Positions 3,073 to 20,777 of a stretch of DNA of 20,777 nt are shown piece by piece. Numbering within the stretch: the first letter of the stretch is position 1; each line of letters opens with the position of its first letter. Both the position numbers and the translations under genes were made by a program. The DNA lies in IMG/VR virus record IMGVR_UViG_3300025000_000475, positions 1 through 20,777 of that record; one strand, written 5' to 3'. The DNA is from a virus. Under the pieces are notes generated by a model. The model was not told where the DNA came from. It did no database searches and saw nothing but the letters and a program-made list of their open reading frames with translations.

Positions 3073-4047
3073 GTGTCATATAATTCGAAAGTATATCGCA
3101 AACAAGGCGGGGATGAGCTAGTTGTTGCTAATGGTGGCATAATTACCGTCGAGTCTGGTGGACAAATAAATGTGATCGCTCCCAGCGGTGCGATCTATTT
3201 TGTTGATGCAAATATCACGGCCAGCGGGGACGGTCTTAGTTGGGGTGCAGCCTTTAAAACGATGGCCGAAGCTTTCTCTGTCATCTCAAACGGCGACAGC
3301 ATTTTATTTCGCGGCAAGATCCGCGAACAACTTACCGCGCCAGTACAGGTGTTTGACGTAACAATTATCGGCGCAGGCAATAGACCGCGCCACGCTGACA
3401 GCACTCCCGATGGTGGTCAGGACGCGGCCAATACATGGACAATTCCTGTTAGTGGAGCCACCACTGCCCCGCTTTGTAAGGTTCTTCAGCAGGGTTGGAG
3501 ATTTGTCAATATATTATTTGCTGGACCTACTGATTCTGATTGTATTCAGTTATACCGTGATGCTGGCGCGGATGATGCTGAACGCGACGCATCGCATGCT
3601 GAGTTCATTAACTGCCGCTTTGCCTCCGGGTATAATGGCATTAATGACCTTGGTGGATGTTTTGGGGTCCTAGTGCAGGGTTGCCGCTTTCAGGCGCTTA
3701 CTAACTTCGCCATTCTCGGGGTCGGCAATATAGGTGTTGGTCAGAGTATGTGGGTTGTTGAGGATAATCATTTCTATGGCTTCACTAACGGCGTAAAGAT
3801 TGCTGCGTTTGGCTGCCGGATTAAGGGTAATACCTTTACTGATGGTGGAACGCCCAATACCACTGTGGTACTTAATACCAATAATGGCGGCGGTGCCGAT
3901 AACTTTGTCGTGGATAACTACTTCCAGACCAGTACAGCTAATTTTAATACGCCTGACATTGTTGGTAGTGCTACGGACGTGTGGAATAATACCAGTATTG
4001 ACGGTACGGCTGATATGATTGGCCGCGAAGTTGGACAGCCAGCGTAG
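3073..4047 (+). CDS. Right-handed beta-helix protein, putative capsid fibre or surface-binding protein
   Basis: A 324-residue protein; GTG start with GGAGGCAAGC just upstream. After a short glycine-rich beta lead (GGIITVESGGQINV), the stretch from about residue 40 has the PL-6/pectate-lyase-like look: YFVDANITASGDGLSWGAAFKTMAEAF, then DSILFRGKIREQL. From residue 140 to 300 there are regular short strands ending in N or G turns (FINCRF, VQGCRF, VEDNHFYGF, IKGNTF, VVDNYF), the classical parallel beta-helix ladder. Such folds serve in phages as trimeric fibres or polysaccharide-binding or -cleaving spikes. Catalytic residues cannot be assigned. The location beside the capsid gene, rather than with the tail genes, points to display on the head. 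Confidence 0.75.
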   Translation: MSYNSKVYRKQGGDELVVANGGIITVESGGQINVIAPSGAIYFVDANITASGDGLSWGAAFKTMAEAFSVISNGDSILFRGKIREQLTAPVQVFDVTIIGAGNRPRHADSTPDGGQDAANTWTIPVSGATTAPLCKVLQQGWRFVNILFAGPTDSDCIQLYRDAGADDAERDASHAEFINCRFASGYNGINDLGGCFGVLVQGCRFQALTNFAILGVGNIGVGQSMWVVEDNHFYGFTNGVKIAAFGCRIKGNTFTDGGTPNTTVVLNTNNGGGADNFVVDNYFQTSTANFNTPDIVGSATDVWNNTSIDGTADMIGREVGQPA

Positions 4048-4068
4048 TACAGAAGGGAGGCATAATAA

Positions 4069-5922
4069 TTGGCCTTTAGACGTATTGAAGTTTTTGAAAA
4101 ATACACCTGTCTCTCTACTGACGTAAAAACAACCGTGGGCATAGCAAATGATTCAACTTGTCTGGAGACTAACACAGGTGATTTATATACCTTTGACGGA
4201 GCTGATTGGAGGCTTACAAATCAAAATGTAAGCCTTACAGATTACGAAGCTATTGACGTAGACACCGGTGCAGGTACCGTAAACGCATTACCTATAACCT
4301 GGCGCAAGTCAGGCGCAGGTGGGCCAGAATTTGGGACAAGTATAAACCCGGTGCGAACCGACACAACGGGATCCACCACACAACCGGTAAGTAATGCAAA
4401 TCTAGACATTGCCCTTTCCGCTTTACGTGATGCAATTACCGGCACTGACGCGGCTGCCCGTACCCAAGGTCAGATAGAGGCTGCTGTCCTTGCGCTCAGA
4501 ACAGCATCGACGCTGGACACTTTGGAAACTGTCATTACTGCCATTAAGGATACTGACGGCATAAAAAAAATAACCGACGCTGTAACCGTTGGCTCTTCTG
4601 TACTACCGACCGGCGCAGCGACAGAGGCCACTCTTGTAGCCATTGGTCTGCTATTGACTTCTTTGGATGGTAAGGATTACGCTACACAGGCAACTCTTGC
4701 AAATATACTTACCCAATTAAATACTACCGGCCTAAAAAAGATTATTGATGCACTTCCGGCCGGGGACAATAATATCGGTAATGTTGACGTTGTTACATTA
4801 CCGGCAATCCCCGCAGGGACTAACAATATTGGTGACGTTGATGTTGTATCTTCAGTATTACCGACAGGCGCAGCAGTTGCAGCAAAGCAGGACGCATTGA
4901 TCGCTAAAGACTTTGCTACAGAGGCTACTTTGGCATCCGTACAGGCCACATTAGCACAAGGCGGTATCCCGGCGACTACCTTAGAAACCACACACCAAAA
5001 CGCAGCAACGACAGACGGTAATGGTACTGCCGCAGCAGTTTCCGGTTATGGACCAATCGCTTTTCAGGTTACAGGCACATTCGACACAGCAACCGTAACG
5101 TATAAAGGTAGTGTGGACGGTACTAATTATGAAGCGTTACCCGGTACCTCTGCTGTTACTGCAGTAGGTATTTCTAAATTCGATGTGTCGGGGTATAAAT
5201 CAGTTTTGGCGGTAATTTCTGGTGCCGGTGCAAGTACGAGTCTAACTATTAAATCGCTTGCTGTGGGTGTCGCTAGACCGCTTACTGCCGATGTAATCAC
5301 AGTCGGTAAAGCCGCCGATAATGCCGCCGCTAATGGTAACCCCGTGCTGTTTGCAGGTAAGTATAATACTACTCCTGCTACTCGTGATGAGGGGGATGTA
5401 GTTACCCTCCAGACCGATGCACAAGGGAACTTACTTACCAAACTAACTGGTAGTAATGTTGAACAAATATTAAATCAAAATTTACCTACAAAAGCCAACC
5501 TAATTGGTATTAGTGATGGTACTAAAATACAGGCTATGCAGGGTAATACAGAAGGAGTATTGCTTACTAGTGTTGCTAGGACAACATCTATAAGTAGTCC
5601 AAATCAAGTGAATTATAACGCTCGTGGCGCAATGCTTTCATTGAATATTTCTGCAAATCCTGGCAATACAGAAACTTTACAAGTTTCTGTAGATGCAATT
5701 GATCCCGTTAGTGGTGGAACTAGAGCTATAGTAACATTTCCTCTGGTAAATGCATCTAATGCAAGATATTTTTATTATGTTTATCCTGGTATAATTGAAA
5801 CTTTGGACGCATCCGGGGTTAGTGTGCAAGCGTTACCTCTGCCGAAGCAATGGAAAGCGGCAGTTACACATTCTTCAACAAGTTCATGGACGTATTCGCT
5901 TAGTTATTCATATATTATATAG
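4069..5922 (+). CDS. Modular fibre-like virion protein, putative head fibre
   Basis: A 617-residue, low-charge, Ala/Thr/Gly-rich protein with a TTG start 8 bases after GGGAGG. Visible modules: an N-terminal cap (residues 1-75, with TCLETNTGDLYTFDGADW); repeated ATEATL/ATQATLA stretches (about 175-310) that look like a trimeric stalk; two copies of an [LI]PAGxNNIGxVDVV repeat (229-242 and 247-260); a beta-sandwich-like region (about 325-400); a GNPV...GDVVTLQTDAQGNLL module (423-457); and a C-terminal beta domain (about 500-617) with DPVSGG, YPG and a final TYSLSYSYII. The GNPV and PAG modules recur in the tail-cluster gene at 14919. Base composition drops sharply near 5440, inside the gene. 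A surface appendage is well supported; head attachment is inferred from position. Confidence 0.72.
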   Translation: MAFRRIEVFEKYTCLSTDVKTTVGIANDSTCLETNTGDLYTFDGADWRLTNQNVSLTDYEAIDVDTGAGTVNALPITWRKSGAGGPEFGTSINPVRTDTTGSTTQPVSNANLDIALSALRDAITGTDAAARTQGQIEAAVLALRTASTLDTLETVITAIKDTDGIKKITDAVTVGSSVLPTGAATEATLVAIGLLLTSLDGKDYATQATLANILTQLNTTGLKKIIDALPAGDNNIGNVDVVTLPAIPAGTNNIGDVDVVSSVLPTGAAVAAKQDALIAKDFATEATLASVQATLAQGGIPATTLETTHQNAATTDGNGTAAAVSGYGPIAFQVTGTFDTATVTYKGSVDGTNYEALPGTSAVTAVGISKFDVSGYKSVLAVISGAGASTSLTIKSLAVGVARPLTADVITVGKAADNAAANGNPVLFAGKYNTTPATRDEGDVVTLQTDAQGNLLTKLTGSNVEQILNQNLPTKANLIGISDGTKIQAMQGNTEGVLLTSVARTTSISSPNQVNYNARGAMLSLNISANPGNTETLQVSVDAIDPVSGGTRAIVTFPLVNASNARYFYYVYPGIIETLDASGVSVQALPLPKQWKAAVTHSSTSSWTYSLSYSYII

Positions 5923-17915: not shown

Positions 17916-17951
17916 GTATACAAAAAGTATACAAGTATACTTTTTGTATAC
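17916..17951. repeat. 36-bp near-perfect palindrome built of GTATAC units
   Basis: GTATACAAAAAGTATAC (17916-17932) and GTATACTTTTTGTATAC (17935-17951) are exact reverse complements with two bases between. It follows the propeller stop with no gap. Each arm has two GTATAC hexamers; a fifth lies at 17975-17980. As RNA it would be a long A/U hairpin with A-tract and U-tract, possibly a bidirectional terminator. As DNA it could bind a dimeric repressor. Confidence 0.75.
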
Positions 17952-19246: not shown

Positions 19247-19280
19247 AGCCCTGGCCCATGTGGTTGGGGCTTTTTTATTT
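19247..19280 (+). terminator. Rho-independent terminator of the late operon
   Basis: AGCCCTGGCC (19247-19256) pairs with GGTTGGGGCT (19262-19271) over 10 bp with three G-U pairs around a five-base loop, followed by a run of T (19271-19276) and ATTT. It lies 50 bases after the last + strand gene. Confidence 0.85.
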
Positions 19281-19282
19281 TG

Positions 19283-19309
19283 CAAAAGAAAAACCGCCCG
19301 CAGGCGATT
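19283..19309 (-). terminator. Rho-independent terminator of the reverse cassette
   Basis: Read on the - strand: AATCGCC, loop TGCG, GGCGGTT (seven pairs with one G-U), then TTTCTTTT. The stem is at 19292-19309 and includes the stop region of the small ribbon-helix-helix gene. It faces the + strand terminator, insulating the two operons. Confidence 0.75.
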
Positions 19310-19460
19310 ATTTTTTATCCTTATTTATTCTTTTTTCTATATACTCCTTGATAGCTTCATTGGTAACCGAAGCCTTAGAGTCTCCTGTTTGCTCAATATA
19401 TTTATTAAGCAGTTGGAGCGTTTCGTACTTTATTTGTGTGCTGTAAGCTATTTTAGCCAT
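19308..19460 (-). CDS. Small ribbon-helix-helix-like protein (50 residues)
   Basis: The ATG at 19460 lies one base after the stop of the ParB-like gene, with GGGAGG placed inside the end of that gene. The protein runs MAKIAYSTQIKYETLQLL, then NKYIEQTGDSKASVTNEAIKEYIEKR. A short beta strand followed by two helices with a TGDSKASVTNEAI turn is the Arc/MetJ/CopG-type ribbon-helix-helix pattern, often a DNA-binding autoregulator or antitoxin. The basic tail (INKDKK) fits. No toxin is visible next to it, so an autoregulator of this operon is the more likely role. It ends at a terminator. Confidence 0.75.
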   Translation of the reverse strand: MAKIAYSTQIKYETLQLLNKYIEQTGDSKASVTNEAIKEYIEKRINKDKK

Positions 19461-19461
19461 T

Positions 19462-19965
19462 TTATACCTCCCATGATTTTGAGTATTCGCGGTCCTTGAA
19501 TAGTGCGGCCAGTCCGGTTATCTGCTTCAGCCTCAAAAGTTCGTCAACATCCATTCCAAGGTGTTTCGCAATCCAGGAGTCCGACTTACCCATCTCAACA
19601 AGTTCAGCTACAATGTTACTCATTAGATCGATGTTATGCGTACCCCTGGCCCGGTTGTGACGAATAGTGGAAGCCATACGCCCACCTATTTCCTTGTCAA
19701 TAACTACTACAGGACACATACCATTCTCGCGCTCATAAATTCGCTTGCTGGTTTTTAATATTAAGTGTCGATGAAATCCGTCAACAACAATATATATTCC
19801 ATTTTCTGCATCATAATAGGTGACTACCGGCTGCGTAAATCCATCCTCCCATATAGACAACTCAAGAAGCTTCATCTCGGGAGGAGCTACGGCATTGGGG
19901 TTGTAATCATTAGCAACAACCCTTTCAACCGGTACTGGCTTAACATTATACACCGGACTTTTCAT
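19462..19965 (-). CDS. ibrB-like: IbrB-like ParB/sulfiredoxin-domain protein
   Basis: A 167-residue protein in the frame 19965 to 19462. The N-terminal half is a ParB-type domain: VERVVANDYNPNAVAPPEMKLLELSI, WEDGFTQPVVTYYD, and IYIVVDGFHRH, which replaces the usual GxRR motif. Next come RMASTIRHNRARGTHNI and a C-terminal helix-turn-helix-like part (SDSWIAKHLGMDVDELLRLKQITGLAALF). These segments match what I know of IbrB, the partner of IbrA in E. coli, rather than chromosome-partition ParB. ATG 19965 has AGGAG 10 bases upstream; TTG 19974 and GTG 19971 are too close to it. It overlaps the acetyltransferase gene by 20 bases, so it is co-translated. Its biochemical role is unknown. Confidence 0.85.
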   Translation of the reverse strand: MKSPVYNVKPVPVERVVANDYNPNAVAPPEMKLLELSIWEDGFTQPVVTYYDAENGIYIVVDGFHRHLILKTSKRIYERENGMCPVVVIDKEIGGRMASTIRHNRARGTHNIDLMSNIVAELVEMGKSDSWIAKHLGMDVDELLRLKQITGLAALFKDREYSKSWEV

Positions 19966-20368
19966 CGACACCAAACTCCTTTATGTATTCAGTGAAACTG
20001 CCCCTTTTCTTGCCTCCCATAAAGCCTTCCTTAATAAGCATCTCACATAGGTACTTATTTTTTGTTGTTAGTGTGACAATACCGCCCTTAATGTTTTTAG
20101 TGGCGTTCTTGAATAGTTCTTTAAAAACCCCTTTTTGCCGGTACCTATCAACGACATAGCAACTGCCAATTCGATAGTGAGATTTAGGTTTTTCCTGGAT
20201 GTAACAAAATCCAACAATCTTATTCATCTCAGTAGCAACTAACCACTCTTTGTCGTCATCGTCGTATATCTTATAACCTATTTCACGCTCAATATCCCGA
20301 CGAGCTAAAAACGGTCCAAGCGTGTTATAGAAATTCCTATCCTGATTCGTTAATCGTATAATTTTCAT
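19946..20368 (-). CDS. GNAT-family acetyltransferase
   Basis: A 140-residue protein; ATG with AGGAGG 5 bases upstream. The GNAT fold shows as EWLVATEMNKIVGFCYIQEK (strands 2-4), RIGSCYVVDRYRQKGVFKELFKNATKN (strand 4, pyrophosphate loop and helix 3; the usual Q/RxxGxG/A loop is altered to RQKGVF), then GGIVTLTTKNKYLCEMLIKEGFM (strand 5, helix 4, strand 6). It would transfer an acetyl group from acetyl-CoA; the substrate is not predictable. It lies between the DUF3440 gene (9-base gap) and the IbrB-like gene (20-base overlap), so it is a built-in part of this operon rather than a casual neighbour. Confidence 0.8.
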   Translation of the reverse strand: MKIIRLTNQDRNFYNTLGPFLARRDIEREIGYKIYDDDDKEWLVATEMNKIVGFCYIQEKPKSHYRIGSCYVVDRYRQKGVFKELFKNATKNIKGGIVTLTTKNKYLCEMLIKEGFMGGKKRGSFTEYIKEFGVDEKSGV

Positions 20369-20377
20369 GACAACCTC

Positions 20378-20777
20378 CTAAAGGTTCCGGTATTTCTCAA
20401 TTAACTGCCGTTGCCGCTCTACTTGGTTTTTGGTTTGAGCAAACGACAATCCTTTACAAAGATGATCATTTTTCAGAATACACATGGCCATTCTGCGCCA
20501 AGTGGGAGCATAGTGCTTGCTTTCAATATCCCCAGGGAGGCTGTCCTCGATCTTTGTATATCTAACAACCTTTTTATTTTTGTGTCCCCTGGTTGCTATC
20601 TTGTCGGTTACTACGGCAGATGCAGGCAGCTTTTCAAGACATTCATCCGGCAGTCCACAGCCATTTTTATTCCAGTAACGCATAAAACGGATAAACCGAC
20701 TAACATAGTTTTCGCGGGTTTCCGGTGGCAAACTGGCAAGCAGTAGCTTTGTGTAGCTTTTCCATGTATGCCCTTTA
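20378..20777 (-). CDS. ibrA-like: IbrA-like DUF3440 protein, C-terminal part (cut by the window edge)
   Basis: The frame is open to the right edge, so only the last 133 or so codons are seen. The stretch HTWKSYTKLLLASLPPETRENY, then MRYWNKNGCGLPDE, the KNKKVVRYTKIEDSL region, WRRMAMCILKNDHLCKGLSF and a final VERQRQLIEKYRNL fit the DUF3440 domain that follows the PAPS-reductase-like (ATP-pyrophosphatase) domain of IbrA proteins. The N-terminal nucleotide-binding domain should lie just outside the window. A TTG at 20731 could start a shorter form, but the conserved sequence continues upstream of it. Partner of the IbrB-like gene downstream; a sulfur- or nucleotide-transfer reaction is suspected, but not shown, for the family. 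Confidence 0.85.
   Translation of the reverse strand, partial: KGHTWKSYTKLLLASLPPETRENYVSRFIRFMRYWNKNGCGLPDECLEKLPASAVVTDKIATRGHKNKKVVRYTKIEDSLPGDIESKHYAPTWRRMAMCILKNDHLCKGLSFAQTKNQVERQRQLIEKYRNL

Follow-up and report, generated by a model that had tools for sequence, protein, structure and literature searches.

Alternative third genes, GNAT-like or EctC, beside the IbrA-IbrB pair of phages and bacteria

Introduction

Does a small acetyltransferase-like gene lodged between ibrA and ibrB in a viral genome belong with its neighbours and, if so, what might the three proteins do together? IbrA and IbrB were first described in E. coli as a regulator pair. Phages, plasmids and gut bacteria commonly carry them, as does E. 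coli K-12 (ybdNM); the phage copies are currently labelled PAPS reductases and partition proteins. The locus studied here lies in the window, a 20,777-base IMG/VR virus fragment. The initial annotation had proposed that IbrA, the acetyltransferase, IbrB and a small ribbon-helix-helix (RHH) protein form one functional system, carried as accessory cargo beside the phage late genes, with nucleic-acid or nucleotide modification, host takeover or defence against other phages as putative roles.

Organisation of the operon

All four - strand genes were confirmed, and their description as a tightly packed set is correct in every visible point, overlap and spacing included. In the order of transcription, the features are:

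20378-20777, - strand: IbrA (DUF3440), C-terminal 132 amino acids, with the 5' part beyond the end of the window; Pfam PF11922, E 8e-31, profile positions 63-181
19946-20368, - strand: GNAT-like protein, 140 amino acids, motif A RQKGVF; PF00583, E 8e-7; predicted GNAT fold
19462-19965, - strand: IbrB-like protein of the ParB/sulfiredoxin fold, 167 amino acids from the ATG, DGFHR motif; phrog_2159, E 8e-76
19308-19460, - strand: RHH protein, 50 amino acids; Arc-like phrog_3180, E 5e-4
19292-19309, - strand: terminator-like hairpin AATCGCCTGCGGGCGGTT + TTTCTTTT at the operon end; pattern match only

The IbrA and GNAT genes are 9 bases apart, the GNAT and IbrB genes overlap by 20 bases, and a single base separates IbrB from RHH. 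For the IbrB-like gene, alternative GTG/TTG starts are possible at 19971/19974. Each upstream gene contains or ends in a Shine-Dalgarno-like stretch (AGGAGG, AGGAG and GGAGG), so translation of the operon is probably coupled. The - strand hairpin (19309-19292) begins inside the RHH stop codon, and a convergent terminator-like hairpin on the + strand (19247-19271) closes the lysis cassette; terminator-like matches are not in excess in this stretch of the window, with 2 found against 1.7 expected from shuffles. Further into the window, an imperfect palindrome of 36 bases (17916-17951), 94% identical to its own reverse complement, sits between the last tail-region gene and a BhlA-type holin gene.

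Two parts of the initial proposal need to be narrowed. Firstly, a position beside late genes describes the window but not the family, whose members are more often found beside helicase or replication/recombination genes. Secondly, the RHH gene shares a transcription unit with IbrB in the window, but its membership of the system was not borne out. Similarity searches detect it only in the nearest relatives (L003, L004, L008, L009) and in L025 and L099, and in the nearest relatives it may be separated from IbrB by an additional reading frame of 100 amino acids without a family match (6524-6826 in L009), which is missing from the window. Because of this restricted distribution, the RHH gene is not counted as part of the system and is regarded as a local addition.

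A GNAT-like protein linked to IbrA and IbrB

The AlphaFold model of the window GNAT (pLDDT 89.6) has a plain GNAT fold. Its best match in the PDB is an Ard1 (Z 14.3), and 904 of the 999 chains ranked by Foldseek reach Z >= 8 against the model, with GNATs in the top rows. The canonical acetyl-CoA motif of GNATs is R/QxxGxG/A. An altered loop had been noted in the window protein, rightly, since it reads RQKGVF, and most viral members likewise carry F in place of G/A. By regular expression, 19 of 25 Bacteroidota GNATs have lost the R-x-x-G CoA-binding motif altogether, and acetyl transfer may therefore not be the function of the family.

The linkage of this protein to the pair is widespread. Each of the nine viral loci that the GNAT profile retrieved lies next to IbrA/IbrB. 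The order helicase-IbrA-GNAT-IbrB is found in Desulfosporosinus (L175, GNAT 59%) and in a deltaproteobacterium (L204, 51%), and four gene orders are known in total (HAGB, GAB, HGAB and BXGA). In Bacteroidota, the reading frame directly 5' of IbrA, labelled 'hypothetical protein' on a plasmid, belongs to the same GNAT subfamily. The phages, Desulfosporosinus, the deltaproteobacterium and the Bacteroidota therefore all have one GNAT subfamily beside the pair. For most Bacteroidota members, matches to the Pfam GNAT models are weak at best. Profiles built from independent viral and Bacteroidota sets, without a common sequence, match each other in hhalign at E 7e-16 (probability 98.6), and reciprocal HMM matches between the two groups mostly fall between 1e-8 and 1e-15. 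No GNAT relatives were found among isolated phages at E 0.01.

The linkage was also examined in 80 genomes of the genus Bacteroides. GNAT and DUF3440 are present in the same 36 genomes and are adjacent in 36 of 36; by coordinates, the GNAT lies about 0.7 kb from the DUF3440 domain, which is the length of the N-terminal part of IbrA. One of the 36 has a second DUF3440 copy without a GNAT. The GNAT beside IbrA/IbrB is not random cargo; it is a conserved partner. Its linkage in many other genomes of phages and bacteria, together with the PP-loop domain that relatives carry upstream of DUF3440, supports one functional system of IbrA, GNAT and IbrB, with the RHH protein left out.

An ectoine synthase-like protein in the same slot

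In most phage IbrB loci, the gene between IbrA and IbrB is of the same size as the GNAT gene and encodes an ectoine-synthase-like cupin (EctC; PF06339, E 6e-40, above the NCBIfam ectoine synthase cut-off). After redundancy had been removed at 90% IbrB identity, 126 loci remained; 67 have EctC, 35 have GNAT, none has both, and 24 (about a fifth) have neither. Since this set includes loci that were retrieved by EctC, which biases the count, loci retrieved by IbrB alone were counted separately (n=90: EctC 44, GNAT 29, both 0, neither 17). The exclusion has a Fisher p of 6e-12, uncorrected for shared ancestry. On a tree of IbrA plus IbrB, EctC occupies practically a single clade (64 of 65 rows), so the exclusion reflects few evolutionary events; the GNAT is found on several separate deep branches and changes state 8 times. 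On a simple reading, tentative as to the direction of change, the GNAT would be an old partner, lost in some lineages and swapped for EctC in one large phage clade.

The 80 nearest viral EctC proteins all adjoin IbrA and/or IbrB, and in 12 of the 67 non-redundant EctC loci, including gp104 of phage Gaia, EctC and IbrB share one reading frame. IbrA and IbrB stay linked, and at most loci one small third protein, GNAT-like or EctC, is kept beside them, never both. Cooperation of GNAT and EctC within one phage was considered and rejected: PF06339 has no match in any GNAT-bearing record examined, even in contigs as long as 80 and 70 kb, and none of the 126 loci has both. An identity of the window GNAT with EctA was likewise rejected, since the protein does not match the EctA model at E <= 0.1.

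That the four window genes stand together by chance, or with nothing in common but a promoter, is true to the extent that RHH is indeed merely a local neighbour. As a general account it is highly improbable, and for IbrA, GNAT and IbrB it is already refuted by the 36/36 adjacency in Bacteroides-genus genomes, the adjacency kept across rearranged gene orders, the one-frame EctC-IbrB proteins, and the absence of loci (0/126) with both alternatives.

The residues of EctC were compared with the reference residues and mutant activities of PMC4795551. T40, Y52, H55, E57, G64, Y85, P109, G113, E115 and H117 are conserved in 67/67, H93 and F107 in 66/67, and L87 in 61/67. Position 105 is Ser or Cys, either of which is tolerated by the active enzyme (PMC4795551). 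As the active-site residues are kept, the enzyme is probably active, judging by sequence. Trp-21, which touches the ligand in the crystal structure of ectoine synthase (PMC4795551), is replaced, mostly by Gly. EctA and a class III aminotransferase (EctB type) were found in none of the 25 EctC-bearing records, which indicates that the product is not ectoine.

IbrA is a PP-loop protein without the redox motif of PAPS reductase

Because the window ends inside IbrA, the full protein was taken from relatives, namely L003, L004, L008 and L009, whose IbrB is 89% identical to that of the window. In L009, IbrA (4300-5592) has 430 amino acids and matches both PF01507 (PAPS_reduct, E 2e-13) and PF11922 (DUF3440, E 2e-55). 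A PAPS-reductase-like PP-loop domain upstream of DUF3440, as expected by the initial annotation, is therefore present in relatives, with the PP-loop SGGKDS in L009. SGGKDS or SAGKDS is kept in 117 of 119 IbrA relatives, and the alignment has more than 50 near-invariant positions. The redox motif of PAPS reductase (CysH) is ECGLH; it occurs in 0/119 IbrA relatives, and CxxC in just 2/119. Cysteines are frequent at alignment positions 91 and 403, though invariant at neither, so thiol chemistry is possible. The nearest solved relatives of IbrA are CysD and FAD synthase, both of which are adenylyl transferases; among the PADLOC profiles, DndC comes closest to it (E 7e-9).

Phage PAPS reductase genes have been reported as auxiliary metabolic genes of sulfur metabolism (PMC10434257). 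The absence of ECGLH from all 119 relatives makes the PAPS-reductase and sulfur-metabolism labels doubtful for IbrA-type phage genes. It also bears on the suggestion that the locus serves small-molecule metabolism, in which the phage would make ectoine, a related solute or an antimetabolite, and IbrA would be a real PAPS reductase acting as an auxiliary metabolic gene. The ectoine-synthase active site kept in EctC and the annotation of similar phage genes (PMC10434257) are in keeping with such a role. It is improbable nonetheless, given the lack of ECGLH, the replacement of the ligand-contacting Trp-21, the one-frame EctC-IbrB proteins, and the 25 EctC-bearing records without EctA or an EctB-type aminotransferase.

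IbrB and the case for a regulator

D-G-[FY]-H-R is present in 126 of 126 IbrB relatives, and the GERR motif of classical ParB is not. We take the DGxHR motif to be sulfiredoxin- and DndB-like. Compared with solved structures, the IbrB profile matches ParB/Noc (E 8e-5 to 3e-4) and, weakly, the serine kinases SbnI/SerK. The Pfam ParB_N score of the window IbrB is below the cut-off (14.5 against 26.3 bits); a ParB-type N-terminal domain was recognised from phrog_2159, the ParB/Noc structures and the adjacency to IbrA. The C-terminal part contains a helix-turn-helix-like region.

These features raise the question of whether the locus encodes a transcription-regulatory pair, in which IbrB would bind DNA through its C-terminal part, IbrA and the third protein would produce or alter a small effector molecule, and host or prophage genes would be switched. 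Annotators use the label 'co-activator of prophage gene expression IbrA/IbrB', IbrB matches the ParB proteins Noc and Spo0J, and PMC9068703 lists K-12 YbdM as a predicted transcription factor. However, a regulator has no need for a PP-loop enzyme with so many near-invariant positions, or for a cupin in which the active site of ectoine synthase is complete. Moreover, the window IbrB is 67-88% identical to the IbrB of phages from very different sources, which is unusual for a promoter-specific regulator. We consider this explanation possible but unlikely.

Further genes and the case for defence

Neighbouring genes were searched for in the fetched flanks of the loci. Two further genes recur in EctC-type loci, X (about 140 amino acids) in 62 of 67 and Y (about 93 amino acids) in 49 of 67:

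6509-6901 in L045, 1446-1853 in L030, and 60+ other loci: gene X, without a Pfam or PHROG match
6869-7150 in L065, and 51 other loci: gene Y, a stand-alone DUF3440 C-terminal motif (P-S-W-K ... I-L-K-N-D) that adjoins X

The model of X is all-helical (pLDDT 93.3), with a best PDB Z of only 3.7. As a candidate diverged GNAT, X was rejected (hhalign probability 0.1). An independent-pairs test of EctC against X on the tree had 2 pairs only. In many GNAT-type and pair-only loci, a SNF2-like helicase lies directly upstream. Cysteine desulfurase, methyltransferase and deazaguanine genes were not found as conserved neighbours in the fetched flanks.

Single loci have other genes between IbrA and IbrB. 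L041, the sole member of the EctC clade without EctC, encodes a 1-Cys peroxiredoxin-like protein there (3868-4617). L012 has an insertion (4500-5567) for a 355-residue protein with a ParB/DGxHR-like stretch, and L026 one (4510-5262) with a reading frame of 250 amino acids that resembles a GIY-YIG homing endonuclease, both recognised by eye.

Could the locus be an anti-phage defence, superinfection-exclusion or toxin-antitoxin module of phages, prophages and plasmids? The DndC profile is the nearest to IbrA in PADLOC, many loci of the GNAT type and of the pair alone have a helicase with ZorD/DpdE-type similarity ahead of IbrA, and a Listeria IbrA/ParB pair has been listed as toxin-antitoxin by guilt by association (PMC7020466). 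However, that helicase is of an ordinary phage kind (phrog_62), GNAT, EctC, IbrB and X match no PADLOC model, and the conserved partners in EctC-type loci are X and Y rather than nucleases or translocases. Such a module is quite unlikely.

A possible modification module

We tentatively favour, with slightly less than even confidence, a reading in which a conserved, nucleotide-dependent modification module with an exchangeable third subunit exists in two forms, one of them IbrA-GNAT-IbrB. IbrA, a PP-loop ATP-pyrophosphatase that lacks the redox motif of PAPS reductases, would adenylylate and so activate a substrate. IbrB would supply NTP-driven and DNA-binding functions, and the third protein would finish or fit the added group. 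In this role the GNAT could acylate, or serve as a CoA-binding or structural subunit, and EctC could perform a dehydrating ring closure. By analogy with DndC-DndB and DpdA-DpdB-DpdC, we infer that the likeliest target would be DNA or its nucleotides. Several observations count against this reading: 24 of the 126 loci have neither GNAT nor EctC, the pairs on E. coli and Klebsiella plasmids stand alone, the fetched flanks show no conserved cysteine desulfurase, methyltransferase or deazaguanine gene, most Bacteroidota GNATs have lost R-x-x-G, and EctC is limited to one clade.

It is tempting to go further and to speculate that IbrA-IbrB with GNAT or EctC, joined by X and Y where EctC is present, represents a hypermodification system for nucleic acids that has so far gone unrecognised. 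IbrA would then attach a group resembling an amino acid to a base, and EctC would close this group to a cyclic amidine. This more specific proposal is rather unlikely.

A mutually exclusive third subunit provides a chemical handle on IbrA/IbrB and leads to the prediction that IbrA does not serve sulfate reduction. A modification system of this kind would be undescribed and common to phages and bacteria. The literature searched, mostly without subscription papers, contained no link between IbrAB and EctC or between IbrAB and the GNAT.

Comparison with known systems

The closest known loci are the IbrA/IbrB genes of E. coli and ybdN-ybdM of K-12, which likewise combine a DUF3440 PP-loop protein and a ParB-like protein in one operon; the E. 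coli IbrB is about 50% identical to that of the window. The pairs on E. coli and Klebsiella plasmids differ in that no GNAT or EctC lies alongside. A search by DNA similarity with a Xenorhabdus query found no E. coli chromosomal relatives; the K-12 pair is identified as ybdN-ybdM in PMC9068703. According to table 1 of that paper, deletion of ybdO in K-12 raises ybdN by 5.5 log2 and ybdM by 2.5, together with cysA, cysC, cysD, cysH, cysI, cysJ, cysN, cysU and cysW (2 to 3.2 log2). The rise of the cys genes with ybdN in this table hints at sulfur or acetyl-serine chemistry, and is confounded with the deletion of the regulator.

Among phages, gp103-gp104 of Mycobacterium phage Gaia (annotated as PAPS reductase and as an ectoine synthase/ParB multidomain protein) and the locus of Pseudoalteromonas phage XCL1123 have IbrA followed by EctC and IbrB. 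The Gaia IbrB is 72% identical to the window protein. Both phages have EctC where the window has the GNAT, fused to IbrB in Gaia, and both have the additional gene X.

Two DNA modification systems share parts of this architecture. Dnd phosphorothioation also pairs a PAPS-reductase-like PP-loop enzyme (DndC) with a partner, DndB, that belongs to the ParB superfamily (PMC11662687). It differs in that CxxC is present in so few IbrA proteins, and in that the neighbour clusters of IbrAB loci have no DndD, DndE or cysteine desulfurase in the fetched flanks, where a small DndE could be missed. The Dpd 7-deazaguanine system similarly consists of a modifying enzyme (DpdA), a ParB-like partner (DpdB) and a separate finishing enzyme (DpdC). 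DpdB is described as a ParB-like ATPase that powers the insertion of the base, which DpdC then completes (PMC12839542). In contrast to Dpd, no TGT homologue was seen among the conserved neighbours of IbrAB, and the catalytic folds differ.

Finally, solitary (orphan) ectoine synthases, whose role PMC5924519 describes as unresolved, are likewise encoded without EctA and EctB. The IbrAB-linked EctC proteins differ from them in lying always beside IbrA and/or IbrB, in being sometimes fused, and in the replacement of Trp-21. The IbrAB loci thus offer a context for solitary ectoine synthases, which would gain a function if the hypermodification proposal were true.
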